64,000 bases of DNA from Ferruginibacter sp. GTDB taxonomy: Bacteria; Bacteroidota; Bacteroidia; Chitinophagales; Chitinophagaceae. Of this stretch, positions 651 to 30,823 are shown piece by piece. Below the pieces are notes generated by a model. The model was given only the letters and a program-made list of their open reading frames with translations. It ran no database searches and was not told the DNA's origin. Positions within the stretch are counted from its first letter, which is position 1. Each line of letters begins with the position of its first letter. The DNA lies in NCBI GenBank assembly GCA_025362235.1, contig JANYGZ010000098.1:1-64000 (forward strand), written 5' to 3'. A program made the translations under genes and the position numbers.

Positions 651-1214
651 TTATTTTTTGAACCCAATTCTTTGTCTGTCTTCCCATTTTCTTTGCGCAG
701 CCTTTTCATCTAATAGATTTTCCATTGCATCATAAATCTGATTTAGCTGCACATCATGCTCACCAAGCCGTTCCTTGATTTCTTTTAGCTGTTCTTTTAT
801 ATCAGTTTGTTTCAAAACAGCTTTTTTTATTGCTACAAAAGCCCGCATAATAGCAATATTCATCTTAATTGCTTTATCGGAGTTTATAACTCCGCTTAAC
901 ATGGCAACGCCCTGTTCGGTAAATACATAAGGAAGATATTTCAGATGTTGCCCCCTGCCATTCTTTAAGATCACAATTTGTGATCTTAAAGAATCATTGT
1001 TTTCTGAGGCTTCAATTTGAAGCCGCAGCTCTTCAAATTCTTCTTTAGTAAGCTGAAACATGAAGTCTTTAGGAAATCGCCTGGCTTGGCGTTTTACTGC
1101 CTGGTTTAAACTCCTGGTCTCTATTTCATATAGTTCTGCCAGGTCCCTGTCGAGCATAACCCTTTCGCCTCTTATTTCATAAATCCTGTTTTGGATGCTT
1201 TGTATTATTTGCAT
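651..1214 (-). CDS. ORF6N domain-containing DNA-binding protein
   Basis: IRGERVMLDRDLAELYEIETRSLNQAVKRQARRFPKDFMFQLT...LPYVFTEQGVAMLSGVI is a characteristic ORF6N signature. Confidence 0.92.
   Translation of the reverse strand: MQIIQSIQNRIYEIRGERVMLDRDLAELYEIETRSLNQAVKRQARRFPKDFMFQLTKEEFEELRLQIEASENNDSLRSQIVILKNGRGQHLKYLPYVFTEQGVAMLSGVINSDKAIKMNIAIMRAFVAIKKAVLKQTDIKEQLKEIKERLGEHDVQLNQIYDAMENLLDEKAAQRKWEDRQRIGFKK
960..994. repeat. 35-bp perfect palindrome (1-nt centre) inside ORF6N CDS
   Basis: a-ttctttaagatcacaa-t-ttgtgatcttaaagaa-t; arms are exact reverse complements. Confidence 0.97.
1008..1024. repeat. 17-bp perfect palindrome inside ORF6N CDS
   Basis: ggcttcaa-t-ttgaagcc. Confidence 0.95.
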
Positions 1215-1309
1215 AATAGATGCTTTTCAGATACAGCAACAATATAACAACAAAAAATTCAAATTAAAAGGAAGATGCCAAGGATCGATAATTGTCGCAC
1301 ATAAAAAAA

Positions 1310-1332
1310 TAAGATCACAATTTGTGACCTTA
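1310..1332. repeat. Palindrome upstream of ORF6N gene
   Basis: taagatcacaa-t-ttgtgacctta, one arm mismatch; same core as the intragenic copy. Confidence 0.92.
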
Positions 1333-30124: not shown

Positions 30125-30676
30125 TCATGCTTTATTACCTTCATCACCCGGTTTAAAACCTATCATTGTTCTTTTTACTTTTGGGGCATCAAGCAATAGT
30201 TTTAAAGCTTCAAATACTACGGCTATATCCTGTTTGTTTTCTGATACATCTTTTTCCAATTTTTCGAGTTTCAATAAAATATCTTTATTTGTTAATAGCA
30301 GTTCCCGTATTTTAGTAAATATCCTTATGATTTGAATATTTACCTGGATTGCAACCGGGCTATTTAATACACTTGACAGCATTGCCACCCCTTGTTCGGT
30401 AAAAGCATATGGTAATTTTCTTCTGCCTCCCCAACTTGAAGTCGCAAATTGCGACTTCAAGTTTTCAAACTCTTGTATAGTTAATTGAAACATGAAATCC
30501 TCCGGAAACCTTTCTGAATTTCTTTTCACCTGTTCATTTAATCTTTTTGTTTCTACCTGGTAAAGTTCAGCTATTTCCTCATCCAGCATAACTTTTTGAC
30601 CACGAATCAAATATATTTTGCTCAATAAAACTTCTTCCGGAATCATTAATTGTATTTGCTTTTTAACCTTCGCCAT
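30125..30676 (-). CDS. ORF6N domain-containing DNA-binding protein (start may be 30676 or 30724)
   Basis: IRGQKVMLDEEIAELYQVETKRLNEQVKRNSERFPEDFMFQLT...LPYAFTEQGVAMLSSVLNSPVAIQVNIQIIRIF. The track ORF to 30724 reads through an upstream palindrome. Confidence 0.9.
   Translation of the reverse strand: MAKVKKQIQLMIPEEVLLSKIYLIRGQKVMLDEEIAELYQVETKRLNEQVKRNSERFPEDFMFQLTIQEFENLKSQFATSSWGGRRKLPYAFTEQGVAMLSSVLNSPVAIQVNIQIIRIFTKIRELLLTNKDILLKLEKLEKDVSENKQDIAVVFEALKLLLDAPKVKRTMIGFKPGDEGNKA
30433..30463. repeat. 31-bp perfect palindrome inside second ORF6N CDS
   Basis: aacttgaagtcgcaa-a-ttgcgacttcaagtt. Confidence 0.97.
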
Positions 30677-30694: not shown

Positions 30695-30729
30695 TAAGTT
30701 TGAGGTCACAAATTGTGACTTCAAACTTA
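30695..30729. repeat. 35-bp palindrome (1 mismatch) at 5' end of second ORF6N gene
   Basis: taagtttgaggtcacaa-a-ttgtgacttcaaactta. Confidence 0.95.
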
Positions 30730-30798
30730 TTTTGTTTTGGGAAATTGTGTATCACAATTTTTGACATAAAGTGATTTAAATTTAATAGTGTAGAATCT

Positions 30799-30823
30799 CT
30801 AAGGTCACAATCTGTGACCTTAG
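30799..30823. repeat. 25-bp palindrome (1 mismatch) upstream of second ORF6N gene
   Basis: ctaaggtcacaa-t-ctgtgaccttag. Confidence 0.95.

Follow-up and report, generated by a model that had tools for sequence, protein, structure and literature searches.

A palindrome in the coding sequence of ORF6N genes coevolves with the recognition helix of the encoded protein and suggests self-recognition

ORF6N genes display a palindrome in the DNA that encodes the linker of their product, and coevolution between this palindrome and the predicted recognition helix indicates that it is very probably the DNA site recognised by the protein of the same gene. The window, that is the whole stretch of 64,000 nucleotides from Ferruginibacter sp. 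that was analysed, contains ORF6N genes 1 and 2 (Table 1). Gene 1 scores above the PF10543 gathering cut-off of 27.8 bits and thus belongs to the ORF6N family. Its AF2 model (pLDDT 88) has a long C-terminal helix (113–178), and a Foldseek comparison against BFVD returned viral KilA-N and antirepressor models (prob 1.0, E 1e-5 to 1e-3), which places the protein in the KilA-N superfamily fold. Structural matches in the PDB were weak (Ski/Dachshund, prob ~0.5), and a profile search of the PDB gave chance matches alone.

Table 1. Coordinates of the two ORF6N genes of the window and of their palindromes
Feature	Position	Strand	Remarks
ORF6N gene 1	651..1214	-	187 aa, KilA-N-like DNA-binding protein; PF10543 118.5 bits, E=1.6e-34
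Gene 1 codons 33-42, predicted recognition helix TRSLNQAVKR	1089..1118	-	helix in AF2 model
Gene 1 codon 38 (Gln), predictor of the offset-4 base pair	1101..1103	-	residue-base rule
35-bp perfect coding palindrome of gene 1, putative self-site	960..994		A-T at offset 4, fits Gln38
Tandem coding palindrome of gene 1, perfect 17-bp, GGCTTCAATTTGAAGCC	1008..1024		T-A at offset 4, not covered by the rule
Upstream palindrome copy of gene 1	1310..1332		A-T at offset 4, fits Gln38
ORF6N gene 2	30125..30676	-	134.8 bits; begins at ATG (30724 if a TTG is the start instead)
31-bp perfect coding palindrome of gene 2	30433..30463		G-C at offset 4; reading position occupied by Glu
Upstream palindrome of gene 2	30695..30729		A-T at offset 4, misfits Glu; in frame with gene 2
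Short upstream palindrome of gene 2	30742..30760
Upstream palindrome of gene 2	30799..30823		A-T at offset 4, misfits Glu

The original prediction had placed two perfect palindromes, of 35 bp and 17 bp, within the coding sequence of gene 1 and a third copy about 100 bp upstream whose plus strand reads RSQFVTLKN. Both coding palindromes were borne out when the sequence was re-examined, the longer one having 17-nt arms and a 1-nt centre; the upstream copy is also present, with its centre 107 bp upstream of the ATG, one arm mismatch and the expected plus-strand frame. The further claim that the three are copies of one unit holds for the 35-bp palindrome and the upstream copy, which have a common core, but not for the 17-bp palindrome, whose arm core differs and which is probably older. 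Perfect arms never exceeded 12 nt in 20,000 synonymous-codon shuffles of gene 1, compared to the 17 nt observed. Elsewhere in the 4.33-Mb genome the core was found, allowing up to 3 mismatches, solely near gene 2. The coding palindrome of gene 2 differs from that of gene 1, and three further palindromes lie upstream; the one nearest to the gene would be translated as KSQFVTSN if gene 2 began at the TTG. Seven PF10543 matches in the genome correspond to about six genes or fragments, and several of the other ORF6N genes have gene-specific palindromes.

The coding palindrome proved to be a trait of the family in a sample that comprised 148 Bacteroidota genomes plus 80 named loci of diverse phyla. 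Ten or 11 of 11 linker positions are paired in 100 of the 127 full-length ORF6N genes, again from many phyla, when compared to 3 of 333 neighbouring genes; the enrichment in other ORF6N linkers, over synonymous shuffles and over other genes, on which the original prediction had staked itself, is therefore observed. Across 115 ORF6N genes a mean of 10.1 of 11 linker positions is paired; synonymous shuffles reach 6.9 and the best-scoring site elsewhere in each gene 7.6, and p<0.05 holds for 106 of the genes. The arms covary (0.80 paired versus 0.60 if independent and ~0.2–0.28 when slid), unlike the centre triplet, which displays no covariation, and they remain complementary although the amino acids of the linker change thereby. 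Translation of the core occurs in two frames, which give SQ[IF][AV]T or a LVTNWHRF-like peptide, and many ORF6N genes on viral contigs carry the linker palindrome as well.

The strongest covariation with the bases of the palindrome was observed for helix residues 34, 35 and 38; for 34 and 35 it involves offsets 4 and 7, and little signal came from the C-terminal columns. Residue 38 (numbering of gene 1) predicts which base pair stands at offset 4: Gln occurs with A-T (41/41), Glu with G-C (36/36) and Arg (18) or Lys (6) with C-G (24/24), with no exception among 101 symmetric ORF6N sites. The rule held in 40 of 40 ORF6N genes outside the discovery set and in 48 of 48 Flavobacterium orthologues of one locus, two test sets that share part of their ancestry with the discovery set. 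In most cases a Ser codon supplies the offset-4 base as its third nucleotide, the codon being TCA where residue 38 is Gln (39/39) and TCG where it is Glu (35/35), so that the difference is synonymous. With helix and linker excluded from tree building, 35 changes are counted for the residue class and 35 for the base, and the supported independent contrasts, few as they are, agree in 6/6 (p=0.03) and 5/5 cases. The pattern is in line with known amino acid-base preferences. Thus, the specificity of the site follows the encoded protein, as would be expected of an intragenic self-operator. A rule of this kind is hard to account for otherwise than by an ORF6N protein that reads its own palindrome; the idea that ORF6N proteins bind these palindromes is in this way strongly supported by residue-base coevolution, which strongly suggests that each of them recognises a site within its own gene. 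Against such self-reading count the E. coli W-type dinD allele with a mere quasi-palindrome (see below) and the 9 of 121 ORF6N genes whose internal palindrome is weak.

Bro-N and RhuM genes, which had been fetched as negative controls, proved positive for coding palindromes, and so did KilA-N genes, including those of Firmicutes phages. A palindrome score of at least 10 was reached by 14/25 Bro-N, 19/28 RhuM, 10/19 KilA-N and 81/127 ORF6N genes, versus 0 to 1.2% of shuffles and 2% of neighbours; Rha (PF09669) genes were too rare for scoring. Cores and centre types are specific to each of the four families, and the distance from the start codon is similar, mostly nt 180–260. In bacterial and phage KilA-N genes the coding palindromes are GAATTC-cored and even-centred, and reach 44 bp at one locus. 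RhuM arms covary (0.91 paired versus 0.56 independent and 0.13–0.30 slid), and residue X of the RhuM motif [IV][STNG]XH, the counterpart of ORF6N residue 38, corresponds to the offset-4 pair in 24/24 cases: Glu (8) or Tyr (3) goes with G-C, Lys (3) with C-G, and Leu (7), Met (2) or Gln (1) with A-T. No DNA match to RhuM was obtained in E. coli. Two classes of allele exist for the E. coli dinD gene: the K-12 type has a 32-bp near-palindrome, and 1,885 genomes match most of its probe; the W/O157 type has a quasi-palindrome alone and was found in 2,753 genomes. At four loci dinD is seen to be an allelic mosaic, with the first 240 nt 55–70% identical between K-12 and W and the remainder 92–100% identical.

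These results are best explained by the following mechanism. ORF6N proteins would act as dimers, as their long C-terminal helix suggests, with a KilA-N-like head, and residue 38, aided by 35 and 34, would read offset 4 (and 7) of each half-site. Reader and site would be inherited together because the site sits in linker-coding DNA. By binding within its own transcription unit the protein could limit its own expression, acting either as a roadblock or, in genes with a flanking copy, through a loop; such autoregulation would be a likely consequence, one step beyond binding. A wider reading, to which we give somewhat less than even chances, is that genes of the KilA-N superfamily are self-addressed, one segment both encoding a variable part of a DNA-binding protein and being its target. 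If so, the exchange of a cassette could change the protein and the outer arms of its target in one step, with residue 38 and offset 4 coevolving. Should the linker peptide read the outer arms as well, the loop that confers specificity would be encoded by the same DNA to which it binds.

The original prediction had drawn its operator idea from the upstream copies, and these do not bear it out: flanking copies agree with the residue-38 rule at or near chance (upstream 17/32 versus 13.3 expected, p=0.11; downstream 35/72 versus 34.4), and any flanking copy is present in 37 of 121 ORF6N genes, about one third. The upstream copy fits the protein in gene 1 and misfits it in gene 2. Since flanking copies obey the rule no better than chance would have it, a simple promoter operator is unsupported, and the upstream copy as a matched operator is not generally supported. 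Compensation between weak internal and flanking palindromes was not significant, and the promoter motif TAnnTTTG had no consistent placement near upstream palindromes. Tandem and flanking copies show local duplication, and flanking arrays contain several palindrome types and a few hybrids. A match between the type of the flanking array and that of the linker was considered and rejected, being weak across phyla (0.68 versus 0.63, 0/500 permutations) and absent in Flavobacterium (18 versus 21.6). Rare solitary intergenic palindromes of ORF6N type, with no ORF6N gene found nearby, occur at four loci; a core match around position 1507 of locus L297, AAAAAAAGTCGCAAATTGCGACTTTTTTT, is probably an ordinary terminator that resembles the core by chance.

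Three linker types, A, B and C, occur at one Flavobacterium ORF6N locus. They are distributed almost randomly on the tree of the C-part (24 changes, versus 23.7 after shuffling) and show weak clustering on the N-part tree (20 versus 23.6), and three aligned ORF6N pairs are alike in their flanks and unlike in their linkers; judging by these comparisons, the linker is indeed swapped as a cassette between alleles. The palindrome could accordingly be a recombination hot spot, where a hairpin, a cruciform or a recombinase drives the exchange of linker cassettes among ORF6N alleles and flanking arrays, and this would also suit the half-genes, which break at or adjoining the palindrome, and the A/B/C hybrids, found in 6 of 73 flanking elements and none of 50 linkers. 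We consider it improbable, since it predicts neither a residue-base rule at silent sites nor family-specific cores, since no inverted half-gene was found in 262 loci, a result that also speaks against an inversion switch of the shufflon or phase-variation kind, and since conserved flanks can themselves mediate exchange. Hence the allele shuffling proposed at the outset stands as regards the exchange of cassettes, but it leaves silent-site coevolution and family-specific cores unexplained. The outer arms (offsets 9–15) are palindromic, yet they sort into linker types whose combination with the remainder of the gene is freely reshuffled; no reader for them was found among the features tested. 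In five ORF6N genes the C-half is lost with a break at or near the linker palindrome, sometimes with fusion to a downstream palindrome array, and the ORF6N paralogues that stand in tandem at locus L091 (3370–4553) differ in linker and C-part and have almost identical N-parts.

Tandem linker copies, the use of several frames, flanking arrays and rare solitary copies would be expected of a mobile mini-element, similar to Rickettsia palindromic elements or REPs, that inserts in ORF6N linkers and flanks. The copies are nonetheless confined almost entirely to ORF6N genes, their remnants or the adjacent 300 bp (131 strong palindromes within the genes, 49 at ≤300 bp, none at 300–1000 bp), the exact core is near zero in genomes that lack ORF6N, 12 Flavobacterium loci without the gene are also without the palindrome, its position is conserved across four families, and an empty site with target duplication was not found; the insertion of a mobile element into open reading frames, as originally entertained, now deserves hardly any credence. 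Slightly less remote, though still very improbable, is a functionless palindrome that arises as template switching during replication repeatedly corrects a quasi-palindrome, the linker being under little constraint. Such correction has been proposed for Nematomorpha (PMC6649704), and here the arms change together and a symmetric arm change persists even in an ORF6N gene that lacks the C-half, but conserved family-specific cores, the use of two frames and the residue-38 rule are left without account. The coding-strand stems of 11–20 bp could form an mRNA hairpin that regulates translation or decay; G-T (G-U in RNA) mismatches are however avoided roughly as strongly as A-C, which argues for a constraint on DNA and not on the sense RNA, and the rule connects a base pair with a helix residue that lies far from it, so that a hairpin function is scarcely tenable. 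Recognition by a factor other than the encoded protein, to which the off-rule flanking copies might point, is just as implausible, given that core and offset-4 base track the cis-encoded protein family by family and allele by allele.

Recognition of the palindrome by the protein of the same gene would give a function to proteins annotated by domain alone. Four widespread and barely studied families seem to have a common, unnoticed feature that constrains protein and DNA in the same bases, which is also a warning that the silent codons of these genes are not silent. The ORF6N system makes protein-DNA coevolution readable allele by allele, and sequence data by themselves yield part of a recognition rule for offset 4, in which Gln goes with A-T, Glu with G-C and Arg or Lys with C-G. 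Some of this is open to experiment in a laboratory strain, E. coli K-12, since its SOS gene dinD has such a palindrome.

In the open-access literature searched on ORF6N, KilA-N and palindromes, no self-encoded site or coding palindrome of this type was described, nor was there any account of palindromes that four DNA-binding families have at corresponding positions and that coevolve with the helix in two of them (ORF6N and RhuM). Intragenic operators include lacO2 in lacZ and galOI in galE. Like these, the ORF6N palindrome is a putative protein site within coding sequence and may act via looping or as a roadblock; it differs from them in that the gene which holds it also encodes its reader, that genes of several Pfam families have it at corresponding positions, and that one of its bases tracks a helix residue of the reader. 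If plain autorepression proves to be the mechanism, a new variant of intragenic operator would be a fair alternative label. Intragenic operators and coding palindromes (PMC6649704) are each known already, separately. The Nematomorpha mitochondrial palindromes are also perfect inverted repeats in translated sequence whose arms are kept complementary, but they are scattered over genes, reach 284 bp and have no known reader (PMC6649704), whereas those of ORF6N type measure ~25–44 bp and occupy one fixed gene position with conserved, family-specific cores. Rickettsia palindromic elements likewise lie within open reading frames and are translated in frame; according to the part of PMC6649704 that cites them they are dispersed and lose their identity over time, whereas palindromes of ORF6N type are not spread over many unrelated genes, stay in one gene superfamily and keep their identity. 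REP/RAYT systems resemble ours in that gene-associated palindromes flank the gene of a DNA-acting protein, and differ by their many extragenic copies dispersed genome-wide, compared to a main copy that is coding and few solitary ones. With KilA-N, Bro-N and antirepressor proteins, finally, ORF6N proteins have both fold and domain order in common.
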